Below, piece by piece: positions 31,198-47,124 of a DNA stretch of 64,000 nucleotides; within the stretch, counting starts at the first letter, position 1; each line of letters opens with the position of its first letter. Location: positions 1 to 64,000 of the forward strand of contig CALUTO010000010.1 of assembly GCA_944323735.1 (NCBI GenBank), written 5' to 3'. The notes beneath the pieces were generated by a model, which did no database searches, was not told where the DNA came from, and saw only the letters and a list, made by a program, of their open reading frames with translations. Origin of the DNA: Candidatus Gastranaerophilales bacterium. Its GTDB lineage: Bacteria > Cyanobacteriota > Vampirovibrionia > Gastranaerophilales > Gastranaerophilaceae. A program made the position numbers and the translations under genes.

Positions 31198-31227
31198 CAG
31201 CCGGCAGAAAAAGCCGGCTGTTTTTTT
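31198..31227 (+). terminator. Rho-independent terminator after the iron alcohol dehydrogenase
   Basis: CAGCCGGC-AGAAAAA-GCCGGCTG followed by seven T residues. Confidence 0.92.
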
Positions 31228-31545
31228 ATGCAACCCGACAGACCCCTGCATTTTTCTTACTATTTTTTAATTATTAAAAATTTTTCCCGAAATTATAAAT
31301 TAAAAAAAAAAAAAAAAAACAGATATTTTTTCACGGATTTTTTATACAAATTTTAAAAAAGCAGTTAAAATAAGCTTTTCGGGGTAAAGGATTTTCAAAA
31401 AAAATTTTTTTATATAGACAGTCGGGTAATAGACGACAGAACATTCAGCGAATTAATGTATAAGTAACGTTATTAATTTAAAATCTACCGTGTCATAAAT
31501 AATAAAGAAACAGGGAAACAGGAATGACTAGTGGAAGAGGGATAG
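31228..31545. other. AT-rich gap in front of the biosynthetic cluster, with an A18 tract
   Basis: About 320 bp with no gene. It includes an uninterrupted run of 18 A (31302-31319). The 31430-31545 part is less skewed and should contain the cluster promoter, but I could not pick one pair of boxes with confidence. GGAAGAGGG just before 31546 is the ribosome site of the first gene. Confidence 0.5.
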
Positions 31546-32772
31546 ATGGGTAATAAATTTTTAGAAACAATTTTCTCTATAAAAAATGACTACAAAAGTG
31601 TATCACTGGGCCGCAAACACAAAGTGCTCTGTTTTTTGGGAATAAAAATAAAATTCAGAATCGATCCCAGACTAAAAGAAACAATAGCAGCAAAAAAAAT
31701 TCAAAATACATACGATTTAAGCGTTTACATTAACGCAGAAAAAGTTGTTGTTTTTATAGAAGTAAATGCCGTAATATGCGGTGGGCAGATATCTATCTTT
31801 TCTTTATGTAAATATTCTAAAGCCATACTAGAGCCCAAAGTACCGGTACTTATGACAACAATGCCGGGAAAATATACATATGCACACAATGATTTTTTCA
31901 TAAACAACATTGATGTTTTTCGCTGGGAACAAATTATTGAAATAATAAAAAATAAAAAAGAGGTTATTATTCATATCCCGGAATATTTAACTCCATTATT
32001 TTTAAAAAATCTGACAATAAAAGAAAAGAAAATACTAAAAAAAATTAAAAATTTGCAAATAAATATCATGAATCAACGTGTAGACATAATGCCACCTAAA
32101 GAATATATAGATGAATGTAAAAAATTAACAGAAAATATTACACAGACAACCGCACATGACAGATATTCAACACAGCAAATGAGTAACAAGTATAACATAC
32201 CTTTACATAAATTTTCTGTAAATCTGGATATGCTTCAATACAGTCACCTGAGAACAAATAATATAGAAAAAATAATTTTAATTTCTCCTGACAACAGAAC
32301 AAAAAGTTTTTGCATTAACTGCTTTATTAACAAACTCGGAAAAGAACTGCCTGATTATAAAATCATTCGTTTTTATAAAATGAAATTCTTAGATTGCATG
32401 AAACTTACCTCCAGATGTTTTTTTACAATATCAATGGGTGAAGGGTTTGACGGATATCTAATCCATCCTTTATTTGTTGGCAGGCTTGGAGCAGCAATTT
32501 ACAACAACACTTATTTTCCGGATGCAAGCTGGCTGAAATACAGAAATATCTATGAGGATTATCATCAACTCTGCAATGATTTTGTAAAAGATGTCAGATA
32601 TTTTGAAAACAATCTGGATGCATATCACGAACTTGTTAAAGAACAAAAAGAACGCATTATGAAAATCTACGACATGGAAGAATATAAAGACAATCTGCGC
32701 AGATTCTATAACAGAGAATATGATTTTTACCCGCAGACAGAAGAGGGGGCTAAAAATGCAATCCTCATTTAA
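31546..32772 (+). CDS. Glycosyltransferase-like protein, first gene of the cluster
   Basis: A 408-residue protein I cannot place in a named family. The N-terminus (KVLCFLGIKIKFR) resembles the short FGI/FLGI segments attached to many gut-bacterial glycan enzymes. The C-terminal half has a stretch SMGEGFDGYLIHPLFVGRLG near residue 300 that resembles the nucleotide-sugar binding region of GT-B glycosyltransferases, and the end is helical and charged. It has no signal or TM segment. It is noticeably more A-rich than genes on either side, which suggests acquisition. It overlaps the start of the first ketosynthase by 17 bp. A role in attaching or preparing a sugar is inferred. Confidence 0.5.
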   Translation: MGNKFLETIFSIKNDYKSVSLGRKHKVLCFLGIKIKFRIDPRLKETIAAKKIQNTYDLSVYINAEKVVVFIEVNAVICGGQISIFSLCKYSKAILEPKVPVLMTTMPGKYTYAHNDFFINNIDVFRWEQIIEIIKNKKEVIIHIPEYLTPLFLKNLTIKEKKILKKIKNLQINIMNQRVDIMPPKEYIDECKKLTENITQTTAHDRYSTQQMSNKYNIPLHKFSVNLDMLQYSHLRTNNIEKIILISPDNRTKSFCINCFINKLGKELPDYKIIRFYKMKFLDCMKLTSRCFFTISMGEGFDGYLIHPLFVGRLGAAIYNNTYFPDASWLKYRNIYEDYHQLCNDFVKDVRYFENNLDAYHELVKEQKERIMKIYDMEEYKDNLRRFYNREYDFYPQTEEGAKNAILI

Positions 32773-33922
32773 ACATGTAAAAATAACCGGTATTTCAACT
32801 GCTATTCCGAAAAAAGAAATAAATATCTATGATGAAGCGCAATACTACGGAAACAGCATAAAAAAAATAGACCGTATGAGAAAAATGGTCGGATTTTATA
32901 AAAGAAGAGTTGTTGAGGAAGGGACAACAGCCTCTGATTTAGGAATTTGTGCAGCTAAACATCTGCTGAACGGCATGAACATTAACCTCAGGGAAATAGA
33001 TGCTCTTGTTTATGTTGTTCAAAAACCTGATTATGAAGCACCGGCAACAGCATTTTATATACACAATAAATTAGGACTCCCGGATACAGTTCCGGCATTT
33101 GATATTAATATGGGATGTGCGGGTTTTGTATACGGCATGTGGACAGTCAGCCAGATGATAGAATCAAAAACCTGTAAAAGGATATTACTTATTTGCGCAG
33201 ACACACCTACACTTGACGTAGATCTTGCAGACAGAAATGTTGCACCTATTTTTGGAGACGGAGGCAGTGCCATACTGGCTGAATACAGCAAAGACGAAAT
33301 CTTTTCTTTTTACAATATAGAAACGAAAAGCAGCGGATATTACGCAATAATAGATCCGGCAAAAGGCCACAGATTAAACTTACAAATCAGAAACACAAAA
33401 GATTTTAATTTGATATTAAAATATAAAGACAAAAAATTACAAACACCTGACGGAAGAGAAACAACATTCTTCCATCCATACCTGAACGGAATAGAAGTTT
33501 TTGATTTTACAATCTCCGTAGTACCGCAAAATATAAAAAAACTTCTTGACTATGCAAATTTAAAAGATACGGACATAGAAGCACTTTGCCTTCATCAGGC
33601 AAATAAACAAATAATACAGGCTATTGGAAATGCAGCAGGTTTTCCTGAAGATAAAGTTCCATATCATGCATTCGAAAATTTTGGAAACAATACAATGTGC
33701 TCTATCCCCACAACGATTTGCAGCATATTAAAAGAAAAAACAGAAAAAAGCTGTGTAAAAATTTTAGGCTCCGGATTCGGAAACGGTTTGACTTGCGCAT
33801 CATGTATATTAACGCTGGATAATATATACAATTCGGGCATTGTTGACTATCAATTGTCCGAAAAAACAATGAGTAAAGAAGAATATATTGAATACTGGAT
33901 AAAAAAAATTAAGGGAGAATAA
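32756..33922 (+). CDS. KAS III-type 3-oxoacyl-ACP synthase, copy 1
   Basis: A 388-residue thiolase-fold condensing enzyme. The catalytic triad is intact: C111 in FDINMGCAGFVYG, H270 in LCLHQAN, N301 in ENFGNNT. ATG 32756 is supported by AGAGGGGG. It is 60-70 residues longer than housekeeping FabH, with an insertion around 200-235 and a C-terminal extension ending EEYIEYWIKKIKGE that the second copy also carries. KAS III enzymes condense an acyl starter with a malonyl-ACP; variants of this length occur in glycan-modification and secondary-metabolite loci. An ACP gene follows 2 bp later. Confidence 0.88.
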   Translation: MQSSFKHVKITGISTAIPKKEINIYDEAQYYGNSIKKIDRMRKMVGFYKRRVVEEGTTASDLGICAAKHLLNGMNINLREIDALVYVVQKPDYEAPATAFYIHNKLGLPDTVPAFDINMGCAGFVYGMWTVSQMIESKTCKRILLICADTPTLDVDLADRNVAPIFGDGGSAILAEYSKDEIFSFYNIETKSSGYYAIIDPAKGHRLNLQIRNTKDFNLILKYKDKKLQTPDGRETTFFHPYLNGIEVFDFTISVVPQNIKKLLDYANLKDTDIEALCLHQANKQIIQAIGNAAGFPEDKVPYHAFENFGNNTMCSIPTTICSILKEKTEKSCVKILGSGFGNGLTCASCILTLDNIYNSGIVDYQLSEKTMSKEEYIEYWIKKIKGE

Positions 33923-33924
33923 CA

Positions 33925-34152
33925 ATGAAAAAAACTGATTTTTTAGTTGAACTTGAGGATATACTGCAAAGAGAAGAACCCTGTAGAGAAGAGGACGCTC
34001 TTGAAGACTACGAAGAATGGGACTCCCTCTCAAAAATGGCCGTAATGGCATACTATGACAAAAACTTTAATGTAAAAATTTCTCTTCAGGATTTTCAGGA
34101 AATAAAAACAGTTAATGACTTAATAACACTTGCAGGGGACAAAATCGAATAA
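33925..34152 (+). CDS. Acyl carrier protein, copy 1
   Basis: A 75-residue acidic four-helix carrier. The phosphopantetheine serine is S34 in EEWDSLSKMAV. It differs from housekeeping AcpP (DSLDTVEL) in the residues after the serine, as expected for a dedicated carrier. It lies between a ketosynthase and a ketoreductase, so it likely carries the growing beta-keto/hydroxy acyl chain. Its stop overlaps the next start by one base. Confidence 0.88.
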   Translation: MKKTDFLVELEDILQREEPCREEDALEDYEEWDSLSKMAVMAYYDKNFNVKISLQDFQEIKTVNDLITLAGDKIE

Positions 34153-34898
34153 TGATAAGCTTTCAAAAAGAACAAATATTTATTGTAACTGGCGCAAGCT
34201 CCGGCATAGGAAAGGCTACCGCACTTTTATTAAACGAACTCGGCGCAACAGTTATTGCAATAGCCAGAAATACCGAACGTCTGACACAAATGAAAGCAGG
34301 GTGCAAATATCCGGAAAACACTTATATTGAAGTCAAAGATCTTGCTGAAAATATAGATGCACTTCCTGATTATGTAAAATCTTTAAAAGAAAAATACGGA
34401 AAATTTTCAGGCATGGCATACTGCGCAGGAATTACAGATGTTACTCCGGTAAGTTTCATTGATTTTGAAAAGTTACAACATATATTTCTAACTGATTATT
34501 TTGCACCGATTCTTTTTACAAAAGGAATAGCGGATAAAAGGAACAATTCAGGTACCGGTACATCTATAGTACTAATCTCTTCTATGTCCGGCGTCTACGC
34601 AACAAAAGGAATGACCGCATACTGCGGTGCTAAAGCAGCTTTAATAAACTCTGCAAAATGCATAGCAAAAGAAATTGCAAATAAAGGAATAAGGATAAAT
34701 ACAATATCACCTTCTGACATAGAAACGCCAATGACAATGAATGATAATATCAAAACACTGCTGGAACAAAGAATACATTTATACCCTATGGGAATAGGCA
34801 AAGCCGAAGATGCCGCAAACCTGACAGCATTTCTATTATCGGAAAAATCCTCATGGATTACTGCACAAAATTATATATTAGACTGCGGGAGTATATAA
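34152..34898 (+). CDS. Short-chain dehydrogenase/reductase, FabG-like, copy 1
   Basis: A 248-residue classical SDR with the cofactor motif VTGASSGIG (residues 10-18), catalytic serine in VLISSMSG, Y and K in YCGAKAA, and the C-terminal SSWITAQNYILDCG stretch. In this setting it would reduce a 3-oxoacyl-ACP to the 3-hydroxy form. The stop and the next ATG overlap as TAATG, so the genes are translationally coupled. Confidence 0.88.
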   Translation: MISFQKEQIFIVTGASSGIGKATALLLNELGATVIAIARNTERLTQMKAGCKYPENTYIEVKDLAENIDALPDYVKSLKEKYGKFSGMAYCAGITDVTPVSFIDFEKLQHIFLTDYFAPILFTKGIADKRNNSGTGTSIVLISSMSGVYATKGMTAYCGAKAALINSAKCIAKEIANKGIRINTISPSDIETPMTMNDNIKTLLEQRIHLYPMGIGKAEDAANLTAFLLSEKSSWITAQNYILDCGSI

Positions 34899-35545
34899 TG
34901 AAGAAAATATATATTGTAGGCGGTAACGGTTTTGCACGTGAATGTCATCTGAGTTTATTAACAATTTTGAAATCAAAAAATGACATTACATTCGGCGGTT
35001 TTCTAGGTCACGGTGGTTACGGTCATACTGTTGATTACAAAGAACTGCAAAATTTTTACAAGGGTGAAGTTTCGGAATACAAATTCAATGATAATGAATA
35101 TGTTGTAATAGGTGCCGGATATCCTGAATTAAGACAAAAAATTTATTACGAATTAAAAGAGAAAGAAATAAAATTTTTTAACTTGATTTCACCCAATATT
35201 ACAATTTCAGAGACGGTAAGAATTGGAGAATCTAATGTAATAGCAGGAAACAGCTTAATATCAGTAAATTGCAATATAGGAAACGGAAATGTATTAAATT
35301 GCGATGTAAACCTAGGTCACGACTGCGAAATCGGAGATTTCAACTTTTTCGGGCCACGTTCACAGGCACTCGGGAATGCAAAAATCGGCAGTATGAACCA
35401 GATTGGTGCAAATGCAATTCTTCTGCCAAATTCAAAAATCGGAGACAACAACAAAATTGCACCGCTCAGCGCAGTATACAAAGGCTGCAAAAATAATTGT
35501 TACATGGCAGGCAATCCTGCACTGAAAATAGGGAGTATAGAATGA
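34898..35545 (+). CDS. Hexapeptide-repeat acyltransferase (PglD/NeuD-like)
   Basis: A 215-residue protein with an N-terminal Rossmann-like segment (KKIYIVGGNGFAREC) and a C-terminal left-handed beta-helix built of hexapeptides such as VIAGNS, IGNGNV, NCDVNLGHDCEIGDFN and IGDNNKIAP. This is the PglD/NeuD/GNAT-independent sugar acyltransferase family that N- or O-acylates nucleotide sugars. It is the best candidate for the transfer step onto a sugar, here possibly using an acyl-ACP or acyl-CoA made by the cluster. I chose ATG 34898 over an upstream in-frame start because it is coupled to the SDR stop. Confidence 0.8.
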   Translation: MKKIYIVGGNGFARECHLSLLTILKSKNDITFGGFLGHGGYGHTVDYKELQNFYKGEVSEYKFNDNEYVVIGAGYPELRQKIYYELKEKEIKFFNLISPNITISETVRIGESNVIAGNSLISVNCNIGNGNVLNCDVNLGHDCEIGDFNFFGPRSQALGNAKIGSMNQIGANAILLPNSKIGDNNKIAPLSAVYKGCKNNCYMAGNPALKIGSIE

Positions 35546-38079
35546 CTGATTGTTTAACAACAAATGAACCCAATACAGTAGTATTAAAGCATAAATGTAC
35601 AAACTGCATGGCATGCTACAACATCTGTCCGTCAGGTGCAATTGAAATGAAAGAGGACAAAGACGGATTCGTTTATCCGTTCATAAATGAAGAAAAGTGT
35701 ACCCACTGCGGATTGTGCACTAAAAAATGTCCGGCACTAAACCTTGAAGAGATAAAATCATCAACTGACAGAACAGATGCACCGGTAATCTATGCCGGAT
35801 ATTCAGATAATGAAGAAATCAGAGAAAAAAGCACATCAGGAGGCGTGTTCTCAATTCTTGCAAAATACATTTTAGACAAAGGCGGATATGTCTGCGGCGC
35901 ACGTTTTACCAGAGGAGGTATCTGCGAGCACGTTATTGTGGACAATTGGGAAGACTTAGCCCCCTTAAGAGGCTCAAAATATGTCCAGAGTAATATAAAT
36001 AACTGTTATAAAGAAATAAAAAATCTGCTCGCTCAGGACAAATATGTTCTTTTTACCGGCACCCCCTGTCAGGTAGCAGCACTTTATGCAGTACTTGGTA
36101 AAGATTATGAAAAGCTTTTTACAATAGACCTACTGTGTCATGGTCTGCCGTCTCAAAAGATTTTCCGTGAATATTTGAATGAAATAACCGACGGTCTTGA
36201 AAATGAAGTTGAAGATTTTCAGTTCAGAAATAAAATAGAAGGATGGGAAAAACCGTCAATATCATACAGACTAAGAGGTAACTACTACTACTATTACTGG
36301 GATACAGCATATATTCAGGGATTTGTGAGAAATTTAACACTCAGAAAATCATGCACAGATTGTAAATACTCAAAATTACCAAGAAACGGCGATTTTACAA
36401 TAGGTGATTTCTGGGGGGTAAATGCATTTGACAAAAGCATTAACGACAACAAAGGAATTTCTGTTCTGCTTTTAAATTCCCTAAAAGCACGCAATGCTTT
36501 TGCTGAAGTTAAAGATAAGTTTAAAATATTAAAACAACTAACACTTGCACAAACAAAAGTTGCAAACGAGTGGTCATTTTCAAAAGCACCGGTTCATCCG
36601 TCTCATTCTTATTTTATGCACAGATATTCAACAGGCAAATATTCATCAATCTCCACGCTGATAACAGAATGTCTTAACAAAAAAGACGGAATTGCTCTTT
36701 TGAATTTTGGAGATTCAAAAATCAATTACGGATGTGTTTTAACAGCCTATGCACTTCAACAGGTTATAAAACAGCACGGATATTTCCCCGTAAACATAAA
36801 ATTCTACGATAATGAAAACATAATCGACCTGAATAACCTCGAAGATTTTCAGAAAGAGCATCTCGATTTCACTGCACCTTGCAGCAATATTAATAAACTC
36901 AAAGCACTAAACGAAAATATCAGAACTTTTATCGTCGGGTCTGACTGCGTATGGTTCGATTTTGCAAATAGCTCCTTTTTTAATGCTTTTAAATTTAACT
37001 TTGCAGATTTTTCAAAAAATATTTGTTCCTATGCTGCATCATTTTTGACAGATAAACTTGAAAAATGCAGAGCCGGAAAAATAGGAACATACCCTTACAC
37101 TCCAGCCGAAAAACAGGAAGCCCAAAAGCTGCTCCGGCGTTTCTCTCACATAAGCGTCAGAGAAAAAAGCGGAGTCGATATATGCAGAGAAAATTTTGAT
37201 ATCAATGCAGAACTTGTTCTGGATCCGGTATTTTTGCTGAGACCGGATGAATGGCTCGCTCTTCAAGAAAAAAAGAAATATGAACAACCGGCATTTCATG
37301 AAAAAAACGGAGGTGCTGTCAGTTATATAATTAACTGGGGCAATCTTGATAAAAGAATACTTGAATATATCGAAAACATTAACAGTCTAAAAAAACTATA
37401 CAATGGAGTTACTTACGGTGAACTAATACGCGATTTAAAAAAGAAAAAAGCTTATGGACCTACTGTTGAAGACTGGGTTAAAAATATTGCAAACTGTGAT
37501 ATTTTATACACTGATTCTTTTCACGGCATGTGTTTTGCAATAATTTTCAATAAACCGTTTATACTTTTTGGTGCAAGCGGCAACGGTTTTACCAGACATA
37601 AGTCACTTATGGATTTGCTTGGAATCTCAGACAGGCGGGCAAATAATGTTGACGATATTATCCGGCTCGAAAAAACACCTATAGACTATGTATCAGTAAA
37701 CAATCGGCTGCATGAAGAAATAATAAAATCTCAGAAATATATTGCCAAAATGTTAAATTCACACGAAAATCCGGACAAAACCAGAATATATATAGAAACT
37801 CTGGAAAAGGAAATGAATGCAAAGATTGCCGGATGTGAACAGAGAATGAATGCAAAAGTTTCACAATTACAAGCAGAAATAATCAAACTAAAAGCCATTC
37901 CCCTAAAAGTAAAATGGGAATTTCTCGGAGTTCAGGTATTTAAAAAGAAATTAAGAAAAACGAACTACTGGTTCTATATCTTCGGTATACCACTTATTAA
38001 AGAAGTCAAAAAAGAACACAATACCTACTACAAACTCTTCGGAATCATCAGAGTCCTTAAAAAAGCAGTCAGAAGCTAG
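35542..38079 (+). CDS. Fusion: F420-dehydrogenase-beta-like iron-sulfur domain + polysaccharide pyruvyl transferase
   Basis: An 845-residue fusion with start ATG 35542 (GGGAGTATAG before it). Residues 15-65 hold two [4Fe-4S] ferredoxin motifs (C19/22/25/29 and C53/56/59/63). Residues 80-375 match the coenzyme F420 hydrogenase/dehydrogenase beta subunit, with STSGGVFS, RGSKYVQS, FTGTPCQVAAL and GDFWG. Residues 385-695 match polysaccharide pyruvyl transferase (start NFGDSKINYGCVLTAYAL, end TDSFHGMCFAIIFNKPFI). Then comes a coiled coil (about 745-785) and a tail with FYIFGIPLIK and KLFGIIRVLK. These two domains are usually adjacent genes in capsule loci. They may reduce or modify a glycan intermediate and add a pyruvyl ketal, respectively; actual substrates are unknown. 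Confidence 0.82.
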   Translation: MTDCLTTNEPNTVVLKHKCTNCMACYNICPSGAIEMKEDKDGFVYPFINEEKCTHCGLCTKKCPALNLEEIKSSTDRTDAPVIYAGYSDNEEIREKSTSGGVFSILAKYILDKGGYVCGARFTRGGICEHVIVDNWEDLAPLRGSKYVQSNINNCYKEIKNLLAQDKYVLFTGTPCQVAALYAVLGKDYEKLFTIDLLCHGLPSQKIFREYLNEITDGLENEVEDFQFRNKIEGWEKPSISYRLRGNYYYYYWDTAYIQGFVRNLTLRKSCTDCKYSKLPRNGDFTIGDFWGVNAFDKSINDNKGISVLLLNSLKARNAFAEVKDKFKILKQLTLAQTKVANEWSFSKAPVHPSHSYFMHRYSTGKYSSISTLITECLNKKDGIALLNFGDSKINYGCVLTAYALQQVIKQHGYFPVNIKFYDNENIIDLNNLEDFQKEHLDFTAPCSNINKLKALNENIRTFIVGSDCVWFDFANSSFFNAFKFNFADFSKNICSYAASFLTDKLEKCRAGKIGTYPYTPAEKQEAQKLLRRFSHISVREKSGVDICRENFDINAELVLDPVFLLRPDEWLALQEKKKYEQPAFHEKNGGAVSYIINWGNLDKRILEYIENINSLKKLYNGVTYGELIRDLKKKKAYGPTVEDWVKNIANCDILYTDSFHGMCFAIIFNKPFILFGASGNGFTRHKSLMDLLGISDRRANNVDDIIRLEKTPIDYVSVNNRLHEEIIKSQKYIAKMLNSHENPDKTRIYIETLEKEMNAKIAGCEQRMNAKVSQLQAEIIKLKAIPLKVKWEFLGVQVFKKKLRKTNYWFYIFGIPLIKEVKKEHNTYYKLFGIIRVLKKAVRS

Positions 38080-38088
38080 GAAATTTAT

Positions 38089-39237
38089 ATGACGAATACA
38101 GTATTTAAAAATGTAAAAATATCAGGCATTACCGTTGTCTTACCGGAAAATAAAATATCCGTAGACGATGAACTTGAGTTTTACAAAAACGATATAAAAC
38201 TGCTCGAGAGAAACAAAAAAATTCTTGGCATAAAATACCGCTATATCGTTGAAAACGGAGTAACATGCACAGACCTTTGTGAAAAAGCAGCTGAATTACT
38301 TTTAAGAAATATTAATATTAATAAAACAGAAATAGACAGCCTGATTTTTGTATCAACCAGCCACGACTATAGCGCACCTGCTTCTGCATGCTTGTTACAT
38401 GGCAGACTCGGGCTTGATGATACCTGTGCCTGTTTTGACACATCCGGGCTCTCATGTTCAGGATATGTCTACGGGCTGTGGCTGGCGCACTCTCTTATCT
38501 CATCAGGTGCTTCTAAAAAGTGTCTGCTGCTTGCAGGAGATACAAACAGCCTTCACTCTGACAAAAGAAACAGAATCTCAAATATGCTATACAGCGATGC
38601 CGGCTCTGCAACTCTGATAGAGTACACTAAAGAAGAAAACACTTCATACTTTAATCTTGGAACCAGCGGCAAAGACTGGAACAAAATTATTATACCCGCT
38701 TCCGGTTACAGACTTCCTGTCAGAAAGGATATTGCAGATATTGAGATTACTGACGAAAACGGAAATGTCTGGCACCTTTATGACGAAATTTTGAAAGGCA
38801 TGGATATTTTTCGGTTCACCATGGAAAACGCACCTAAAAGTATAAAAGAATTATTAACTTTTTCTAAAAAAACATTCGATGATATAGACAGAGTTCTAAT
38901 GCATCAGGCAAACGGACAAATACTGAAAACAATTGCCCAGCATGCAGCAATTCCGAAAGAAAAGACATCAGCTGAAACTTTTTCAAAATATGCAAATTGC
39001 GGTGCGGCATCCGTAGTAAGCGCAATTTGCGACCAGATGCACAATTCCTGCGCAAATAACGCAATGCTTGTCACCTTCGGTGTAGGTCTTTCCTGGGCAA
39101 GTGCTATTATTAATCTGAAAAAATGTCTGATAACAGATATTCAGTTTTACAAATGCAATGAAAAATCTATATCAAGACGAGAACAAATTGAAGAATGGAT
39201 AAAATATTTTAAAGGAGAGGAACCGGTTAAAATATGA
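38089..39237 (+). CDS. KAS III-type 3-oxoacyl-ACP synthase, copy 2
   Basis: A 382-residue paralogue of the 32756 gene. Catalytic residues are C113 in GLSCSGYVYG, H272 in LMHQANGQ and N303 in KYANCGAAS. The active-site surroundings differ from copy 1 (SGLSC against NMGCAG), suggesting a different acyl substrate. The same C-terminal extension (EQIEEWIKYFKGEE) is present. It overlaps the following SDR by 4 bp, mirroring the ketosynthase-reductase pairing of the first module. Confidence 0.86.
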   Translation: MTNTVFKNVKISGITVVLPENKISVDDELEFYKNDIKLLERNKKILGIKYRYIVENGVTCTDLCEKAAELLLRNININKTEIDSLIFVSTSHDYSAPASACLLHGRLGLDDTCACFDTSGLSCSGYVYGLWLAHSLISSGASKKCLLLAGDTNSLHSDKRNRISNMLYSDAGSATLIEYTKEENTSYFNLGTSGKDWNKIIIPASGYRLPVRKDIADIEITDENGNVWHLYDEILKGMDIFRFTMENAPKSIKELLTFSKKTFDDIDRVLMHQANGQILKTIAQHAAIPKEKTSAETFSKYANCGAASVVSAICDQMHNSCANNAMLVTFGVGLSWASAIINLKKCLITDIQFYKCNEKSISRREQIEEWIKYFKGEEPVKI

Positions 39238-39971
39238 ACAGAAAAAATGTTTTTATAACAGGGGCAGCCGGAGGCATCGGTAAGGCATTAATAAAAATTT
39301 TTGCGTCAAATAATTATAACATTATCGCACATTGCCGGAAACCAGATAAAGAAAAAGAAAAATATTTTGACGAAATAAAAAAAGAATTTGATATTGAAAT
39401 TTATCCGGTGTATTTCGATATGACAAACTATATTGCAATGAAAACAGCTCTTTTAAATCTATTTAAAGAAAAAAAGAATATCGATGTGCTTGTCAACAAT
39501 GCAGGCATTGCGCACGGCGGACTTTTTGCAATGACACCGGTTTCTAAAATAAAAGAAGTTTTTGAAATAAATTTATTTTCACAGATGGAATTAACCAGAC
39601 TTGTTTTAAAAATAATGACAAGGAAAAAATCCGGATCTATTGTCAATATTTCATCAATTGCAGGATTAGATCTTGCAGCCGGTAACAGTGCTTACGGAGT
39701 TTCAAAAGCCGCACTTGCAGCCTGGACAAAAACACTGGCTGCAGAATTCACCGGCTCAGGAATAAGAATAAATGCAGTTGCGCCGGGTCTCACGGACACA
39801 AGAATGGCAGTATTAATGGAGGAAAAAGCAAAACAAGAAATGATATCAGCTTCGGCAATGAACAGACTTGCAAAACCGGAAGAAATAGCACAGGCAGTAT
39901 TTTTTCTAACCTCCGATGCCGCTTCTTTTATCAACGGTCAAATTTTAAGAGTTGACGGGGGAGCAAAATAG
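39234..39971 (+). CDS. Short-chain dehydrogenase/reductase, FabG-like, copy 2
   Basis: A 245-residue SDR with VFITGAAGGIGKAL at the cofactor site, NNAGIAHGG, catalytic serine in IVNISSIAG, YGVSKAAL with tyrosine and lysine, and the C-terminal FINGQILRVDGG typical of 3-oxoacyl-ACP reductases. It is closer to canonical FabG than copy 1. It would reduce the product of the second ketosynthase. Confidence 0.88.
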   Translation: MNRKNVFITGAAGGIGKALIKIFASNNYNIIAHCRKPDKEKEKYFDEIKKEFDIEIYPVYFDMTNYIAMKTALLNLFKEKKNIDVLVNNAGIAHGGLFAMTPVSKIKEVFEINLFSQMELTRLVLKIMTRKKSGSIVNISSIAGLDLAAGNSAYGVSKAALAAWTKTLAAEFTGSGIRINAVAPGLTDTRMAVLMEEKAKQEMISASAMNRLAKPEEIAQAVFFLTSDAASFINGQILRVDGGAK

Positions 39972-39975
39972 TTTT

Positions 39976-40803
39976 ATGCAGAATATAATAAAAAAATGTA
40001 ATCATGCAGCAAACCGTATCAGACTTGATATAATAGAAATGACATACAGTACAGGCTCAACCGGGGCTCATGCCGGCGGTTCACTCTCAATGGCAGAAAT
40101 TATGTCTGTTTTATATTGTGCTGTTATGAAATTTGATGAAAAAAATCCTTGCAAAGAAAATCGTGACAGATTGATTTTGAGCAAAGGACACGGCGTAATG
40201 GCGCAATATGCGGCACTAAAACATATAGGAGTGCTAACAAAGGACGACCTGAAAACATTTAAGAAAAATGGCTCATTTCTTTATGCACATCCGTCAATAA
40301 ACCCTTCTATCGGCATTGAATTTTCGAGCGGCAGCCTTGGACAGGGTTTGTCACTCGGTGTCGGAACGGCTCTCGGCTTAAAAATAAAGAAAAACTTTTC
40401 ATCTAAAGTTTACGTTGTTCTTGGAGATGGTGAATGCAATGAAGGACAGATATGGGAAGCTGCTATGTCTGCTTCACATTTTAAACTCGATAATTTAGTT
40501 GTTGTTATTGACAAAAACAGGCTGCAATACGATGGGGAAACAGACACAATTCTAGACTTAGAACCATTTGAAAAAAAATGGGAAAGCTTTGGCTTCAAAA
40601 CACTTTCAGTAAACGGACATAATACGCAGGCACTATTTGACGCATTTAATACCGACCACAATAAACAGCCGATGTGCATTATAGCGGAAACAATAAAAGG
40701 AAAAGGCGTGTCATTTATGGAAAACCAAACAAAATGGCATAACTGTGCACTGAGCAAAGAACAATATGAGCTTGCAATACAAGAAATCGGAGGTGCGTTA
40801 TGA
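39976..40803 (+). CDS. Transketolase, N-terminal (TPP-binding) subunit
   Basis: A 275-residue stand-alone N-terminal half. It includes TGAHAGGSLSMAEI (substrate and TPP region), LSKGHGVMAQYAAL and the thiamine-diphosphate motif GDGECNEGQ with the asparagine of IDKNRLQ. ATG 39976 is preferred, as the upstream in-frame start lies inside the previous gene. The partner subunit overlaps by 4 bp. Together they would transfer a two-carbon ketol unit. Split transketolases occur in archaea and in biosynthetic loci; a housekeeping role is unlikely inside this operon. Confidence 0.9.
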   Translation: MQNIIKKCNHAANRIRLDIIEMTYSTGSTGAHAGGSLSMAEIMSVLYCAVMKFDEKNPCKENRDRLILSKGHGVMAQYAALKHIGVLTKDDLKTFKKNGSFLYAHPSINPSIGIEFSSGSLGQGLSLGVGTALGLKIKKNFSSKVYVVLGDGECNEGQIWEAAMSASHFKLDNLVVVIDKNRLQYDGETDTILDLEPFEKKWESFGFKTLSVNGHNTQALFDAFNTDHNKQPMCIIAETIKGKGVSFMENQTKWHNCALSKEQYELAIQEIGGAL

Positions 40804-41771
40804 TAGAATACACTCCGCAAAACATAAGAATGTGGTCTTTGTTAGGCTCTTGCGGAGCATTCGGTACCGCAGCATCAGCATTGCCCGAAATTGACAAAAA
40901 CATACTGATATTAACTGCCGATTTATGCTACTATTCAGGATTAACAAGATTTAAAGAAACCTATCCGGACAAATTAATTAACGTCGGTATTGCAGAACAA
41001 AATCTAATCGGTGTAGCTGCAGGTCTGGCAAAAGAAGGTTTTAACCCGTTTGTTACAACATACGCTTCTTTCGCATCATTACGGTGCGCTGATCAGGTTA
41101 AAGTCAATATGGGATATATGAAACTACCTGTAAAACTGATTGGCCTGACATCAGGGCTTTCTGTCGGAATACTCGGACCTACACACATGTGTACGGAAGA
41201 CATTGCTGTAATGCGCTCAATACCAAACATAACCATTCTGTCACCTGCGGACTGTACCGAAACAGTTAAATGTGTTTTAGAAGCTGCAAAAATAAATTCA
41301 CCGGTATACATAAGACTGACAGGCAGTTTTAATAACCCTGCAGTTTACAAAAAAGATTATGATTTTCATTTATACAGCGCAGATACAATAAAAAACGGCG
41401 ACGATATTACAATTATCGCAACAGGCTCAATGGTTTTCAATTCAATAAAAGCAGCACAAATTCTTGAAAAACGAGGATTGAATAGTACCGTTATTAATAT
41501 GCATACACTGAAACCGCTGGATATAGAAATTATTAAAAAGAGCTGCAAAACAAAATTGATAGTAACAGTAGAGGAGCATTCCATATACGGAGGTCTCGGT
41601 GCAGCAGTTTCTGAAACTCTTGGCGCAATAAACAGAAAACCAAAGCACCTTATTATCGGTATATCTGATGAATACAAACATGCAGGAGAATACAAATACC
41701 TTCTTGAACAGTATGGACTATCTCCGGAGCAAATAGCAGAAAAAATAGAAAAATCATATAAGGAGACATAA
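40800..41771 (+). CDS. Transketolase, C-terminal (pyrimidine-binding) subunit
   Basis: A 323-residue partner of the previous gene. The catalytic glutamate that activates TPP lies in GIAEQNLIGVAAGLA (about residue 65), with the conserved histidine in LGPTHMCTEDIA and the C-terminal swivel domain from about 190. It is directly abutted by the second acyl carrier gene with no spacer, which suggests the ketol unit may be delivered to that carrier or to an acyl group on it. Confidence 0.9.
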   Translation: MIEYTPQNIRMWSLLGSCGAFGTAASALPEIDKNILILTADLCYYSGLTRFKETYPDKLINVGIAEQNLIGVAAGLAKEGFNPFVTTYASFASLRCADQVKVNMGYMKLPVKLIGLTSGLSVGILGPTHMCTEDIAVMRSIPNITILSPADCTETVKCVLEAAKINSPVYIRLTGSFNNPAVYKKDYDFHLYSADTIKNGDDITIIATGSMVFNSIKAAQILEKRGLNSTVINMHTLKPLDIEIIKKSCKTKLIVTVEEHSIYGGLGAAVSETLGAINRKPKHLIIGISDEYKHAGEYKYLLEQYGLSPEQIAEKIEKSYKET

Positions 41772-42011
41772 ATGAACAATCTCGAGAAATACACAAAAGT
41801 TTTTACAGAAACCTTTGAAATACCCGAAGAAGAGGTGCAGAGCCTGAAATATCAAGACATAAAAGCGTGGGATTCTGTCGGACACATGGGGCTTGTCGCA
41901 AAACTGGAAGAAGCCTTCGACATAATGATGGAAACAGATGACATCATTGATTTAAGCTCATTTGAAAAGGGAAAAGAAATACTGGCAAAATATGATGTGG
42001 AAATTAAATAA
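41772..42011 (+). CDS. Acyl carrier protein, copy 2
   Basis: A 79-residue carrier with phosphopantetheine serine S35 in KAWDSVGHMGLV and acidic helix II (KLEEAFDIMMETDDIIDL). AWDSVGHM resembles carriers of biosynthetic and glycan-modification loci more than AcpP. It sits between the transketolase pair and the acyl ligase, which overlaps its 3' end by 20 bp. It is thus the probable acceptor for the ligase. Confidence 0.88.
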   Translation: MNNLEKYTKVFTETFEIPEEEVQSLKYQDIKAWDSVGHMGLVAKLEEAFDIMMETDDIIDLSSFEKGKEILAKYDVEIK

Positions 42012-43404
42012 ATTTAAAAATAACACGGCCGTAATCACTGAAAGCGGACAGAAAATTACATACGAAGAACTCGATGCACACTGCCAATCACTGACAGACA
42101 AAATCGGCAGACGCTGTCTGGTTTTCAATCTTTGCAGGAACGAAACCGCTTCACTGGCAGGTTATACAGGATTTTTGAATGCAAAAATTGTTCCTCTTAT
42201 GCTTAAAGCTGATTTGGATAAAGACCTGCTTAAAAGCTTTATAATAACCTATAAACCGGATTATCTGCATGTACCCTCCGATATGGCAGCCGCATTTACA
42301 GACAGCAGAGAAATCTATAAAAATCTCGGCTACAGTTTAATAAAAACTCCGTATAATAATGAATTTGAGCTGCATGATGAACTTGCGCTTCTTTTGACCA
42401 CATCAGGCTCAACCGGCAGCCCGAAGCTTGTCAGACAGAGCTATAAAAATATAGAAGCCAACACAAAATCCATTGTTAAATACTTGAACATAGAAGAAAC
42501 AGAACGTGCAATTACGACTCTGCCGATGAATTACACATACGGTATTTCCATTATTAATACACATCTTATGACCGGTGCATGCCTGATTTTAACAGAAAAA
42601 GGGCTTATGCAAAAAGAGTTCTGGCAGCAGCTCAAGGAAAACAAAGCAACCTCCTTCGGGGGAGTGCCATATACTTATGAAATGCTCGAGCGTCTGAGAT
42701 TTTTCAGAATGGACTTGCCGTCATTAAAATATTTAACTCAGGCCGGCGGAAAGCTCTCCCCCGATTTGCATGAAAAATTTGCAAAATGGGCAATTGAGAA
42801 TGATAAAAAATTTATTGTTATGTACGGACAAACAGAAGCAACCGCAAGAATGGCATATCTGCCCTGTGAAAAATCGCTGGAGAAATACGGAAGCATGGGG
42901 ATTGCAATCCCCGGCGGCAAGTTTTCATTGATTGATGAAAACGGAGAAGAGATAACAACTCCTGAGACAGTTGGCGAACTTGTTTATGAAGGTGATAATG
43001 TCACTTTAGGCTATGCTCAATGCGGAGATGACCTGAAAAAAGGAGACGAAAGAGGAGGACGGCTTGTCACCGGAGATATGGCAAAATTTGACAAAGACGG
43101 ATTTTTCTATATTGCCGGACGAAAAAAACGTTTTCTGAAAATTTACGGCAACCGTGTGAATCTTGATGAAACAGAACGTTTAATAAAAAGCAATTTTAAA
43201 GACATTGACTGCGCCTGTACAGGAATAGATGACAAAATGGATATCTTTATCACAAATCCACTTTACAAAGAGATTGTGTTAAAATTCATTTCTGCAAAGA
43301 CAGGAATAAATCATAACGCCTTCACAGTGAATATCATTTCAGAAATACCGAAAAACGAAGCAGGAAAAACTCTTTACAAAGAACTGGAGCTGTCTTATGT
43401 ATAA
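41992..43404 (+). CDS. AMP-forming acyl-CoA/acyl-ACP ligase
   Basis: About 470 residues, ANL superfamily. ATP/AMP motifs: LLTTSGSTGSPKLV (P-loop), YGQTEATARMAY, TGDMAKFDKDGFFYIAGRKKRFLKIYGNRVN and the catalytic lysine in NEAGKTLYKEL. The start is ATG 41992 or 41995. The longer frame extends back through the ACP gene and is unlikely. It activates a carboxylic acid as an adenylate and loads it onto CoA or one of the two ACPs. Confidence 0.88.
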   Translation: MMWKLNKFKNNTAVITESGQKITYEELDAHCQSLTDKIGRRCLVFNLCRNETASLAGYTGFLNAKIVPLMLKADLDKDLLKSFIITYKPDYLHVPSDMAAAFTDSREIYKNLGYSLIKTPYNNEFELHDELALLLTTSGSTGSPKLVRQSYKNIEANTKSIVKYLNIEETERAITTLPMNYTYGISIINTHLMTGACLILTEKGLMQKEFWQQLKENKATSFGGVPYTYEMLERLRFFRMDLPSLKYLTQAGGKLSPDLHEKFAKWAIENDKKFIVMYGQTEATARMAYLPCEKSLEKYGSMGIAIPGGKFSLIDENGEEITTPETVGELVYEGDNVTLGYAQCGDDLKKGDERGGRLVTGDMAKFDKDGFFYIAGRKKRFLKIYGNRVNLDETERLIKSNFKDIDCACTGIDDKMDIFITNPLYKEIVLKFISAKTGINHNAFTVNIISEIPKNEAGKTLYKELELSYV

Positions 43405-44461
43405 CATAACAGAGCCTTTTTCACTAGACAAAGCACAAAAAGAAGCTGTTTTGCTGAAAAAATTGAAAGAACTCACAGGTTTTCATTACAAAAACTGCGA
43501 AAACTACAGACATATCATTGACAGACTCGGGATAAAAATCACTGATATAAAAACAGTGGAAGATATTCCGTTTATTCCTGTCAGACTGTTTAAAGAATAC
43601 GATTTATACAGCATTAAAAAAGAGGAAATTTTTAAAACGATGACCTCCTCAGGCACCTCCGGTCAGGCTGTATCAAAAATATATCTGGATAGAGCAACAG
43701 CAGCTAACCAGCAAAAAACGCTTGTAAAAATAGTGTCTGATTTTACAGGCGCATCCAGAATGCCTATGCTAATAATTGACTCCCCGTCAGTTATAAAAAA
43801 CAGAGAGATGTTTTCTGCACGTGGAGCAGGTATACTGGGATTTTCCATATTCGGTGCCGACAGAACATATGCGCTTGATGAAAATATGAATATTAATCTT
43901 CCGGAGATTGAAGCATTTTTAGACAGACACAAAGGAAAAAAGATTTTGCTTTTCGGATTTACCTTTATGATATGGCAGTATTTTTATAAAGAGCTTAAAA
44001 ACATCAATGCACAACTAAATCTTGAAAACGGAATATTAATTCATGGCGGAGGCTGGAAAAAATTAATAAACGAAGCAGTATCAAAAGAAGATTTTAAAAA
44101 ATGCCTTAATGAGGTATGCGGACTGAAAAATATCCATGATTACTACGGAATGGTAGAACAAACCGGATGTATATACATGGAATGCGAATACGGACACCTG
44201 CACGCAAGTGCATATTCAGACATCATCACACGTAAATCACATGATTTCTCTGTTTGCAGCACAGGTGAAAAAGGACTCATACAGGTTGTCTCGCAATTAC
44301 CTGAGTCATACCCCGGCCACTCGCTTCTAACAGAGGATGAAGGTGTTATTCTTGGTGAAGATGACTGCCCGTGCGGAAGAAAGGGCAAATATTTTGAAAT
44401 AAAAGGCAGAATAAAAAATGCAGAAATTAGAGGATGTTCAGATACATATGAGCGGCGTTAA
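43397..44461 (+). CDS. LuxE-like acyl-protein synthetase
   Basis: A 354-residue protein of the LuxE/PaaK-like adenylate-forming family. Marks are FIPVRLFKEYDLYSIK, the nucleotide motif MTSSGTSGQAVSKIYLD near residue 80, YYGMVEQTGCIYMECEYGHLH and GLIQVVSQLPESYPGHSLLTEDEG. In bioluminescent bacteria LuxE activates a fatty acid and hands it as an acyl-enzyme to LuxC. Here it overlaps luxC by 44 bp, consistent with the same partnership, but no luciferase genes are present. Confidence 0.85.
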   Translation: MYNITEPFSLDKAQKEAVLLKKLKELTGFHYKNCENYRHIIDRLGIKITDIKTVEDIPFIPVRLFKEYDLYSIKKEEIFKTMTSSGTSGQAVSKIYLDRATAANQQKTLVKIVSDFTGASRMPMLIIDSPSVIKNREMFSARGAGILGFSIFGADRTYALDENMNINLPEIEAFLDRHKGKKILLFGFTFMIWQYFYKELKNINAQLNLENGILIHGGGWKKLINEAVSKEDFKKCLNEVCGLKNIHDYYGMVEQTGCIYMECEYGHLHASAYSDIITRKSHDFSVCSTGEKGLIQVVSQLPESYPGHSLLTEDEGVILGEDDCPCGRKGKYFEIKGRIKNAEIRGCSDTYERR

Positions 44462-45623
44462 TTACTTAATAGGAAATGAAGATATATTAAACATGCCGGA
44501 GGTTCCGTTCTCTGATGAGGTTTGTAAATTTTTAAACGACCTGTCAAAAGAGATTCTGGGCTCGAAAGAGGGGCGGCTTTATCCTGACCTTTCAGCACTA
44601 GCCTTCTGGTGCAGACGTGCAAACATACAGCATCTCAAATCATTGTTAGATAACAAACAATACCGGCTTGGAAGAGGACTTTGTTTTCACATTGCACCCT
44701 CAAATATACCTGTCAATTTTGCATTTTCGTACGTATTTTCACTGCTTGCTGGCAACGCCAATATAGTAAGACTACCCGGCAAGGATTTTCCTCAAGTAAA
44801 GGCACTGATTGAAATATTTAAAAAAATACTGGAAAAATATCCAAAAATTAAGGACAGAACGGCTTTTGTAAAATACAACAGAGCCTCTGATGCAACATCA
44901 GTATTCTCAAAAACAGCAGATGTCAGAATGCTCTGGGGAGGAGACAATACAATAAAGGCCCTAAAATCCTGCGAAACAAAACCCCGCTGCATCGACATTG
45001 CCTTCTCTGACAGGTATTCTGTGTGTATTATAGACGGGGCAAGCGTTTTAAAAGCAGATGAAAAGACAATAGAAAAACTTGCAGAAAACTTTTATAATGA
45101 CACATACCTTATGGATCAAAATGCCTGTTCTTCTCCGCAGCTTATCTACTGGCAAAATGACAGCGAATACGCCCGTGAAAAGTTCTGGAGTGCAGTTTAT
45201 AAAACAGCAAAAGAAAAATATAATCTACAAGATGCGATATGCGTGGATAAATACACAAAACTCTGCGAGGATGCAATAGACTATCCGGAGAAAATAAAAT
45301 CCGTAAAACATTGTGGAAACCTTCTATACAGAAGCGAACTTTCAGCACCGGACAAAGACATTGAAAACCTGCGTGGCAAAGGCGGCTATTTTTATGAATA
45401 TTCTTTAAAGGACACAGGTGAACTATACAGAATGATTGATGAAAAATATCAGACAGTCACATATTTTGGGATTAACCCCGAAAAACTTGTAAAAGAGATA
45501 TGCATTCACAAAATATGCGGCATAGACAGAATAGTACCGGTCGGACAGGCAATGGATATAGACATAATATGGGACGGATACGACCTGTTGAATCAATTAT
45601 CGAGGATAATAGATGTACGCTGA
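44418..45623 (+). CDS. LuxC-like acyl reductase (NADPH-dependent aldehyde-forming)
   Basis: A 401-residue aldehyde-dehydrogenase-fold protein of the LuxC family. It reduces an acyl thioester or LuxE-bound acyl to the aldehyde. The nucleophilic cysteine is C237 in MDQNACSSPQLIYW. HIAPSNIPVNFAFSYVFSLLAGNANIVRLP (about 91-120) forms the cofactor region. It is shorter than Vibrio LuxC (about 480). The cluster therefore can produce a free or enzyme-bound aldehyde. An alternative internal start at 44448 exists. Confidence 0.85.
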   Translation: MQKLEDVQIHMSGVNYLIGNEDILNMPEVPFSDEVCKFLNDLSKEILGSKEGRLYPDLSALAFWCRRANIQHLKSLLDNKQYRLGRGLCFHIAPSNIPVNFAFSYVFSLLAGNANIVRLPGKDFPQVKALIEIFKKILEKYPKIKDRTAFVKYNRASDATSVFSKTADVRMLWGGDNTIKALKSCETKPRCIDIAFSDRYSVCIIDGASVLKADEKTIEKLAENFYNDTYLMDQNACSSPQLIYWQNDSEYAREKFWSAVYKTAKEKYNLQDAICVDKYTKLCEDAIDYPEKIKSVKHCGNLLYRSELSAPDKDIENLRGKGGYFYEYSLKDTGELYRMIDEKYQTVTYFGINPEKLVKEICIHKICGIDRIVPVGQAMDIDIIWDGYDLLNQLSRIIDVR

Positions 45624-46521
45624 AAGACATAAAACAAAAATATCCATAATAGGAGCCGGTGCAGTAGGTTCGGCAATCGCATATGCGCTTATGCTCAGAG
45701 GGCTTGCGGATGAAATTGTTTTTATTGATATAAACGAAAAGCTTGCCAATGCAGAAATGCTGGACATAAAACACGGAGTTAAATGTATTCCTGATGTTGA
45801 TATATTCTGCGGCGATTATTCAGATATAAAAAACAGCTCAATGATTATTGTGACAGCAGGAAGAGGAAGAAAAGAAGGAGAAAGCCGGCTTGACCTGACA
45901 TACGACAATTTGAAAATAACAGAAGAAATAGCCTGCGGGATTGAAAAATATTACAATTGCGGCATAGTGCTGGTAGTTTCAAACCCTGTAGATATAATAA
46001 CCTGCTATCTTGCAAAACGTCTGAATTTAGAAAGAGGGAAGGTATTTGGCACAGGCTGTATACTTGACACATCAAGACTTTCGGCCATAGTATCAGATTA
46101 TTTTGAAAGAAAACTTGAAATTCCGGTCATTGGAGAGCACGGAAGCTCACAGTACGCACTCTGGAATATTTCCGGTGAGCTTGATTTAAGCATGCCGCAG
46201 AAATCAGCAATGGAGGCGGATGTACGTGCAATGGGTGCCGAAATCATAGCAGGCAAGGGAAAAACATTTTACGGTATTGCCACATGCGTATGCTCTGTAG
46301 CACAGGCCGTTATCTGTGATACCCCGGTAGAACTCTGTGTATCAGTCCTGCTGAACGGAGAATACGGAATATATGATGCAGCACTGAGTATACCGTGTAT
46401 TGTAGACTCAAATGGAGCCAGAGTTAACGAAAATAGAAGGCTTCCGGATGAAATAATAACCTTTTTAAAAAAAACAGCACAGAATTTAAATAACACAATT
46501 CCAAATGCCTATCGATTATAA
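45613..46521 (+). CDS. L-lactate/malate dehydrogenase family enzyme
   Basis: A 302-residue NAD-dependent 2-hydroxyacid dehydrogenase. NAD motif GAGAVGSAIAY; FIDIN acidic end; SNPVDIITCYLAKRL; GTGCILDTSRL; catalytic histidine in IGEHGSS. The specificity loop reads AGRGRKEGESR. Aligned with LDH (NQKPGETR), the glutamine that selects lactate is replaced by arginine, as in malate dehydrogenases. The substrate may thus carry a second acidic or phosphate group. Its start overlaps luxC by 11 bp. A housekeeping LDH or MDH would not normally sit here, so a cluster-specific 2-hydroxy or 2-keto substrate is inferred. Confidence 0.82.
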   Translation: MYAERHKTKISIIGAGAVGSAIAYALMLRGLADEIVFIDINEKLANAEMLDIKHGVKCIPDVDIFCGDYSDIKNSSMIIVTAGRGRKEGESRLDLTYDNLKITEEIACGIEKYYNCGIVLVVSNPVDIITCYLAKRLNLERGKVFGTGCILDTSRLSAIVSDYFERKLEIPVIGEHGSSQYALWNISGELDLSMPQKSAMEADVRAMGAEIIAGKGKTFYGIATCVCSVAQAVICDTPVELCVSVLLNGEYGIYDAALSIPCIVDSNGARVNENRRLPDEIITFLKKTAQNLNNTIPNAYRL

Positions 46522-46557
46522 CAGTATAAAAATTTTATTCGATAATCATTTCCATGC

Positions 46558-46563
46558 TAAAAT
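46558..46563 (+). promoter_or_regulatory. Extended -10 box of a leaderless phosphopantetheinyl transferase gene
   Basis: TGC-TAAAAT ends six bases before ATG 46570; no Shine-Dalgarno is visible. It gives this gene its own promoter at the end of the cluster. Confidence 0.5.
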
Positions 46564-46569
46564 TGAGCT

Positions 46570-47124
46570 ATGCACAGGGTTAAAATATTTTTTCTAAACG
46601 CCGATACATTTTTATCAGCAATGAACACACAGTATCTGCTCGGTTTTTCAGAAGGCAGAGAATTTAAATCGGAAAAGAGAATGAAACAGTTTTGCCTCGG
46701 ACGATTTCTGCTCAAATATGTTCTAAAAAAAATATATAAAATACAAGAGCCGGAAATAAGAGTAAAAAATGAAAAGCCGTATCTGGTAAACGGTGACATA
46801 CTATTCAGTCTTTCTCACTCAAAAAATCTTATTATAGCAGCATTTGCACCGTTTGAGCTGGGACTTGATGTTGAATACATGAAGGGACGTGACTTTGAAT
46901 CAATTTACAGATATCTGAAAAGAAAAAGCGACAATCCTGACACAGATACGTTTTACAGATTCTGGACAAAGTACGAAGCGGAAATAAAGCTGCAAAAAGA
47001 GCCCGCATCCTGGTTTTGCACGAAGCTGAAGGACAATTTTATGCTTTCTGTATGCGCAGCAGTAAAAGAGGATATTACTCCGGAAATACAGGAAATTACA
47101 AATCACCTTCTACATAATCAATAG
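46570..47124 (+). CDS. 4'-phosphopantetheinyl transferase (Sfp type)
   Basis: A 184-residue enzyme that converts apo carrier proteins to the active form using coenzyme A. It has the family motifs FSLSHSKNLIIAAF (near 80), LGLDVEYM with the magnesium aspartate and glutamate, and FYRFWTKYEAEIKLQ (WTKxEA motif, near 140). It is short for Sfp (about 220) but resembles the compact cyanobacterial/HetI-like forms. It is the natural activator of the two ACPs upstream. Its 3' end overlaps the convergent tolC-like gene by 29 bp. Confidence 0.88.
   Translation: MHRVKIFFLNADTFLSAMNTQYLLGFSEGREFKSEKRMKQFCLGRFLLKYVLKKIYKIQEPEIRVKNEKPYLVNGDILFSLSHSKNLIIAAFAPFELGLDVEYMKGRDFESIYRYLKRKSDNPDTDTFYRFWTKYEAEIKLQKEPASWFCTKLKDNFMLSVCAAVKEDITPEIQEITNHLLHNQ

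Follow-up and report, generated by a model that had tools for sequence, protein, structure and literature searches.

The locus at 31546-47124 of the DNA analysed here raises the question of what can be made by a gene run that combines two 3-ketoacyl-acyl carrier protein (ACP) synthases of the KAS III type with a split transketolase, the lux-type enzymes LuxE and LuxC and several glycan genes. This DNA, referred to below as the window, consists of bases 1-64000 of contig C10 (78319 bp) from a 2.06 Mb genome, 99.7% complete, of the Gastranaerophilales, which are non-photosynthetic Cyanobacteriota. A first-pass annotation of the window had described 15 co-directional genes with overlaps or gaps of about 10 bp, followed by a phosphopantetheinyl transferase. 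The coordinates were borne out: the 15 plus-strand genes at 31546-46521 are tightly packed, with intergenic gaps of -53 to +9 bp, and the phosphopantetheinyl transferase gene (46570-47124, plus strand) lies 48 bp 3' of them. The 15 genes presumably form a single transcript. Domain calls were made by Pfam/NCBIfam profile matches, and these agree with the two KAS III enzymes, two ACPs, two short-chain dehydrogenases/reductases (SDRs), split transketolase, AMP-forming ligase, LuxE, LuxC and lactate/malate dehydrogenase (LDH/MDH)-like enzyme named in that annotation, while its 'glycan-type enzymes' correspond to a NeuD/VioB-type hexapeptide acyltransferase and an FrhB/polysaccharide pyruvyl transferase fusion.

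In this study, the gene organisation, domains, catalytic motifs, modular co-occurrence and loss of the transketolase phosphate clamp were observed directly, and we infer the substrates, the order of steps, the final structure, the sugar and the target. By its gene content, the cluster appears to join a KAS III module of the dihydroxyhexanoyl type to a tetronate-type lux/ACP/ligase core that a specialised split transketolase extends. Acyl decoration of a glycan is very probably the class of function, and the earlier suggestion of a short hydroxylated acyl (or ketol-derived) group on a surface glycan is supported as a reading. To the whole favoured pathway, which takes in both modules, an aldehyde made by LuxE and LuxC, ketol addition by the transketolase and N-acylation of an amino sugar, we give a probability of about 0.58.

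Split transketolases with an altered acceptor site

The transketolase is encoded in two halves, TKN (39952-40803; PF00456) and TKC (40800-41771; PF02779/PF02780), within what we call module B, that is SDR2-TKN-TKC-ACP2-LIG-LuxE-LuxC, plus a dehydrogenase in this lineage. With residues numbered by E. coli TktA, a numbering checked on the K-12 gene, TKN keeps His26, His66, His100 and His261, and TKC carries R358C, S385Y, H461T, D469L and R520G, a change at five of five clamp positions. Comparable changes run through the islands: H461, D469 and R520 are lost in all 26 island transketolase pairs with the catalytic residues retained, since H26, H66, H261, E411 and H473 are kept in 26 of 26 and H100 in 23. 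By comparison, R358, S385, H461, D469 and R520 are kept in 26 of the 27 lux-unlinked split transketolases of relatives, including the host's own housekeeping pair. The maximum-likelihood tree places the island transketolases on a common branch with the single unlinked exception, L136, which is taken up below (support 99/99), and 82% of bootstrap trees place the 26 island enzymes on one side of a branch.

In the transketolase family, we take H461, R520, R358 and S385 to hold the phosphate of the acceptor and D469 to hold its alpha-hydroxyl. In E. coli transketolase, S385 contacts the phosphate, and the triple variant S385Y/D469T/R520Q was evolved in the laboratory from phosphorylated towards non-phosphorylated aldehydes, with phosphosugar binding impeded (PMC5073344). 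The window enzyme (385Y/469L/520G) is altered at the same three acceptor-site positions, with Tyr385 in both, although the E. coli variant is a lab-evolved single chain whereas the window enzyme occurs naturally as two chains and has further changes at 358 and 461. Clamp loss beside the aldehyde-making LuxE and LuxC suggests that the acceptor of the island transketolases would be a non-phosphorylated aldehyde lacking an alpha-hydroxyl. The more specific proposal, that the transketolase acts on the LuxC aldehyde itself, we regard as evenly balanced. Judged from the alignments, loss of the clamp throughout the island transketolases with the catalytic residues kept appears to be new here. No role for the transketolase is given in the passages found that describe lux-tkt or related gene sets, a literature search combining transketolase, acyl-protein synthetase and glycosylation returned no match, and recent Clostridium and Geobacillus flagellin-glycosylation papers mention neither lux nor transketolase genes.

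Two modules, their recurrence and their known counterparts

The remaining members of module B are SDR2, a FabG-type reductase (39234-39971; PF13561, 187 bits); ACP2, a dedicated carrier (41772-42011; PRK00982 and AmcB ACP models) with a DSV motif; LIG, an AMP-forming acyl ligase (41962-43404; PF00501, 147 bits) for which an RfbL-like role as acid:ACP2 ligase is proposed; the acyl-protein synthetase LuxE (43397-44461; PF04443, 202 bits), with a C-terminal Cys in an RGCSD motif; and the acyl reductase LuxC (44418-45623; PF05893, 100 bits), with a Cys in a QNACS motif. LuxE and LuxC of the window align with the P. phosphoreum LuxC-LuxE structure 7xc6. A single scan of the genome collection with a LuxE query, which did not sample KAS III-only or transketolase-only relatives outside the Cyanobacteriota, gave 63 loci, from Gastranaerophilales, Lachnospiraceae and other Clostridia, Negativicutes, Bacillus, Helicobacter, Alpha- and Gammaproteobacteria, Synergistales and others; the LuxE Cys is present in 62 of the 63 sequences. 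Under strict clustering, LuxE was counted in 55 loci, LuxC in 57, LIG in 56, ACP2 in 45 and all four core genes in 39, while a transketolase pair occurs in 20 and a DegT, NeuB, NeuD or sugar-epimerase gene lies nearby in 30. As the core recurs in most of the loci and across phyla, the gene combination is not due to chance, and the genes are not confined to this locus as unrelated insertions, a possibility that the first-pass annotation had raised.

The slot occupied by the transketolase varies. An SDR adjoins TKN/TKC in most transketolase loci, so that SDR2 travels with the pair, and four loci (L015, L016, L026 and L046) hold two pairs. In L014 (4318-9981), L017, L018, L019 and L038, the transketolase is replaced by an acetolactate-synthase-like thiamine diphosphate enzyme, a NeuB-family enzyme and a FabA-type dehydratase, with an additional metallo-beta-lactamase-fold hydrolase in the slot of L014; some other loci have a type II thioesterase near LIG. 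In the congener locus L047, identity to the window is 64-82% for ACP2, LIG, LuxC and the dehydrogenase but only 45-50% for the transketolase, which has different clamp substitutions. The swapped contents and the divergence in L047 support a fixed activation and reduction core with an exchangeable carboligase slot and changeable carbon-carbon chemistry, in which the order of steps would be as proposed below. As a separate observation, the ACP-LuxE-LuxC-LIG core was also seen in a metabolic, non-glycan setting in Clostridium cadaveris, Megasphaera and Megamonas (L040, L054, L060, L064 and L070), where its neighbours are an HpaB-family gene (possibly 4-hydroxybutyryl-CoA dehydratase), a CoA-transferase, a MaoC gene and a sigma-54 activator.

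One known counterpart of module B is in the flagellin island of Dickeya zeae, where the part of the source drawn on here gives luxC-luxE-fadD-tktA-tktB-fabG-acpP beside an aminotransferase and an acyltransferase (PMC7575072), the same set as in the window. It differs in being without the KAS III module, and that part of the source describes it merely as fatty-acid and sugar genes, with no mechanism. An ACP-SDR-ligase-luxE-luxC core is likewise reported, in the sections consulted, for flagellin islands of Enterobacteriaceae (PMC4875605) and of Aeromonas group II (PMC7874193); the latter shares its core and its glycosylation-island setting with the window and, in those sections, is without transketolase. 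In the Aeromonas piscicola AH-3 island, this transketolase-free core is found, and for its flagellin glycan the same sections give two masses, 376.14 Da for a pseudaminic acid derivative and 102 Da for a moiety that they leave unidentified (PMC7874193). By computation, Pse5Ac7Ac (316.127) with one acetyl exchanged for dihydroxybutyryl gives 376.148, and dihydroxybutyryl itself 102.032; both masses fit dihydroxybutyryl groups numerically, which is not proof, and this offers a simple reading of otherwise unexplained values.

The tetronate genes of Vibrio cholerae also include a LuxC part, an alcohol dehydrogenase and an acyltransferase. In V. cholerae O1, rfbK-O provide the tetronate of 3-deoxy-L-glycero-tetronyl-perosamine (PMC12208996, PMC4772473, PMC3441752), and rfbK/L/N resemble, by gene kind, ACP2, LIG and LuxE of the window in encoding a carrier protein, an acid-activating ligase and a LuxE domain (PMC12208996, PMC4772473). 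The purpose is alike too, namely a hydroxylated acyl for an O-antigen amino sugar, and the window shows the corresponding features in its adjacent ACP2 and LIG and in LuxE and LuxC with their catalytic Cys motifs. The window differs, however, in its separate LuxE and LuxC, its added split transketolase with SDR and its added KAS III module, as well as in having no RfbM-type alcohol dehydrogenase inside the operon; an iron-containing alcohol dehydrogenase (Fe-ADH) stands just upstream, behind a terminator-like hairpin, and SDR2 could replace the RfbM-type step.

Module A consists of KS1-ACP1-SDR1-NeuD-KS2. KS1 (32720-33922; PF08545/PF08541, PRK12880-like) holds the catalytic motifs GCAGF and HQAN, and KS2 (38089-39237; PRK12880-like, 271 bits) holds SCSGY and HQAN; ACP1 (33925-34152; PF00550) has a DSL motif, and the 3-ketoacyl reductase SDR1 (34152-34898; PF13561) adjoins ACP1 in module A relatives as well. 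The putative NeuD/PglD/VioB-type hexapeptide N-acyltransferase for a nucleotide amino sugar (34853-35545; TIGR03570, 126 bits, below cut-off) finds its best match in the Protein Data Bank (PDB) in VioB and its next in the PglD-type UDP-N-acetylbacillosamine N-acetyltransferase. A comparable set is wfpC-G of Flavobacterium psychrophilum, proposed for the 3,5-dihydroxyhexanoyl group on Qui2NAc4N of the O-polysaccharide (PMC6519341): it has two 3-ketoacyl-ACP synthases, one ACP, one ketoreductase and a PglD-type acyltransferase, corresponding to module A by gene content, whereas lux or transketolase genes are not reported there. With this likeness and the lux-tkt half in Dickeya, the cluster is not wholly 'undescribed', as the first-pass annotation had it; as a whole, it matches no pathway that has already been characterised.

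Relatives from the same family have either KS1-ACP1-SDR1-NeuD or a pair of KS genes together with ACP1 and SDR1, and the stretches examined in them gave no match to lux or transketolase genes. In one of these relatives (L112), RmlB, RmlA, a DesI-like aminotransferase and a glycosyltransferase precede KS1-ACP1-SDR1-NeuD, which looks like a full pathway to an N-hydroxyacylated dTDP-4-amino-4,6-dideoxyhexose. DegT lies near module A in L106, L111, L112 and G326, in the last of which DegT and a homologue of ORF1, the first gene of the window's run, stand just upstream of KS1. In the genome of the window, RmlB and RmlA are found just beyond its end (C10:64056-66708), and a DesI-like aminotransferase adjoins an ORF1 homologue on contig C29. 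These gene contents suggest that the acceptor sugar is probably similar to dTDP-4-amino-4,6-dideoxyglucose (dTDP-Qui4N). Nine flagellin N-domain matches in the 2-Mb genome (contigs C7, C11, C15, C32, C41 and C42) make flagellin a possible target, and a capsule or lipopolysaccharide-type glycan is equally possible.

A proposed pathway and its competitors

The locus is best explained, we propose, as an operon for glycan decoration that combines two mobile modules for acyl building. In module A, KS1, ACP1, SDR1 and KS2 would yield a 3-hydroxy- or 3,5-dihydroxyacyl-ACP. In module B, LuxE would activate and LuxC reduce a carboxylate to a non-phosphorylated aldehyde, the split transketolase would add a two-carbon ketol to it, SDR2 would reduce the new ketone, and LIG would load the resulting polyhydroxy acid onto ACP2; the same core without transketolase would give 2,4-dihydroxybutyryl (tetronate). 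The carboxylate would most likely belong to a C4 hydroxy-diacid, L-malate for example, which the dehydrogenase at the end of the run (45613-46521; PF00056/PF02866) would supply. The first-pass annotation called this enzyme LDH/MDH-like, and a reading as lactate dehydrogenase is corrected here: the site that is Gln102 in lactate dehydrogenases holds Arg, in the window and in 5 of 5 relatives aligned, and a malate-type substrate is predicted from it. A second LDH/MDH-type copy was not found in the genome. Malate as the starter is put forward tentatively, at somewhat less than even chances. Malate semialdehyde with the ketol added and then reduced would become a 3-deoxyhexonic acid, with an acyl residue of C6H10O5 (162.05 Da). 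Finally, the NeuD/VioB-type transferase would place an acyl on the nitrogen of a nucleotide-linked amino sugar, probably one like dTDP-Qui4N, destined for a surface glycan or flagellin.

Several points weigh against this pathway. The malate assignment comes from one specificity residue, in a gene present only in some loci; the aldehyde could form after ACP loading, gene order being no proof of step order; and one acyltransferase stands beside two carriers, so that either both acyls use the same transferase or there is one composite acyl. The genes for the aminotransferase and the dTDP-sugar are outside the cluster, elsewhere in the genome (DegT on other contigs), no solved glycan for the D. 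zeae lux-tkt set was found in the literature, and the unlinked transketolase L136, on a long branch, also lacks the clamp (G461, G469, K520). Around L136/L154 (G062:C162), no lux genes were seen within the 4 kb examined, and a weak radical-SAM match lies nearby.

It is also conceivable, and in our estimate unlikely, that module B makes only a tetronate-like C4 dihydroxyacyl, with the transketolase supplying a C4 starter (e.g. by C2 transfer to glyoxylate) or serving an unrelated sugar, and with no elongation of the LuxC aldehyde. The transketolase-free core of Aeromonas, Deinococcus and Bacillus is complete alone, and the Aeromonas moieties of 102 and 376.14 Da equal dihydroxybutyryl masses, as such a route would have it; yet the slot that holds transketolase and SDR is exchangeable and the core next to it otherwise constant, L015, L016, L026 and L046 hold two pairs, and the clamp loss suits a non-phosphorylated acceptor. 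For NapB/NapD, transketolase-type transfer of a glycolyl unit to ACP has been proposed, and a similar transfer here, with extension by KS1 and KS2, would unite both modules in one polyketide-like acyl. The presence of KS, transketolase and ACP in one gene run with a single acyltransferase agrees with this, but no lipoyl domain is among the domain matches of the cluster, most transketolase pairs lie in loci that have no KAS III, and module A is also found where transketolase is missing; with the lipoyl domain not found and the modules separate in other genomes, it was rejected as distinctly improbable.

A small diffusible metabolite exported by an adjacent pump of the resistance-nodulation-division (RND) type is highly improbable. 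Domain matches do place OEP/AcrB-type/HlyD efflux genes next to the operon (47096-53318), but these are convergent with it and were not found beside the islands of congeners, and a secondary-metabolite cluster with an RND exporter was rejected for this; the NeuD/VioB-type transferase in the cluster and relatives that sit among glycan genes also speak against it. Synthesis of a fatty aldehyde or 'liposugar' has been suggested for lux-bearing flagellin islands in the parts of PMC4875605 and PMC7874193 drawn on here, and LuxE and LuxC do reduce fatty acids in luminous bacteria. We consider it very remote for the window, as KAS I/II, dehydratase and enoyl reductase were not found in the cluster, its LuxC is distant from luminous LuxC (26 bits) and, by gene kind, its ACP, ligase and LuxE resemble the tetronate type.

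The favoured ketol-adding pathway may be one instance of a general, previously unrecognised acyl-building route, an extension that we hold tentatively and with some doubt. In it, LuxE and LuxC would convert an acid to an aldehyde, an exchangeable carboligase would lengthen it, either a split transketolase that adds a ketol (in some loci present as two pairs) or an acetolactate-synthase-like enzyme together with a NeuB-type phosphoenolpyruvate aldolase, and the product would be recharged on a dedicated ACP. If so, polyhydroxylated, sugar-like acyl side chains such as C6H10O5 (162.05 Da) would occur on bacterial glycans across many phyla, and the lux genes of many non-luminous bacteria would gain a concrete, testable job beyond the 'liposugar' idea. 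A C6 acyl made by transketolase and a hexose would be isobaric, and the one could be taken for the other in glycan mass spectra. The island transketolases also represent a natural lineage whose acceptor site has undergone the kind of change that protein engineers have introduced.

Borders of the operon and remaining genes

A terminator-like hairpin at 31199-31219 (plus strand; AGCCGGC-AGAAAAA-GCCGGCT, then a T run), downstream of the Fe-ADH gene, forms the upstream border of the transcription unit and sets the operon apart, and Fe-ADH was rejected as an operon member on account of it. The Fe-ADH gene itself (29878-31179) is 91% identical and syntenic in three congeners, where it also precedes islands, and within this genus it serves as the upstream limit of a variable island. 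Behind it, the genes of the congener islands are only about 42-82% identical to those of the window and their content differs, with one short NeuD match at 27% identity, and the downstream flank is not shared. This conserved upstream flank with divergent content has the look of variable surface-antigen islands. In the leader/promoter region of the operon, an A18 homopolymer (31302-31319) is the sole run of at least 10 A/T (or at least 8 G/C) in the 64-kb window; it was not seen in the upstream stretches examined in congeners, and a phase-variable switch at this tract is speculative. Promoter and terminator scans gave numbers near the shuffled expectation (promoter-like 66 vs 54.6 +/- 6.8) and were not used.

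The profile matches among the 15 genes include no KAS I/II, PKS-type acyltransferase, dehydratase, enoyl reductase or thioesterase, in agreement with the first-pass annotation. A polyketide synthase (PKS), aryl polyene or fatty-acid operon, which that annotation had likewise dismissed, is ruled out by the absence of KAS I/II, dehydratase and enoyl reductase domains from the 16 genes, and a bioluminescence lux operon was set aside with luciferase luxAB and the LuxD thioesterase missing from the domain matches of the cluster. The fusion of FrhB/FdhB with a polysaccharide pyruvyl transferase (35497-38079; PF04230, PF04432) is a glycan gene. ORF1 (31546-32772) has no Pfam match; its AlphaFold2 model has a mean pLDDT of 60, and the best PDB fold matches are nearly all GT-B glycosyltransferases (best E 9e-7), by which it is assigned, with low confidence, as a GT-B glycosyltransferase. 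The phosphopantetheinyl transferase is of the Sfp/HetI type (AusB and HetI models, below cut-off), and since a separate AcpS is encoded on contig C2 of the same genome, it may be dedicated to ACP1 and ACP2.

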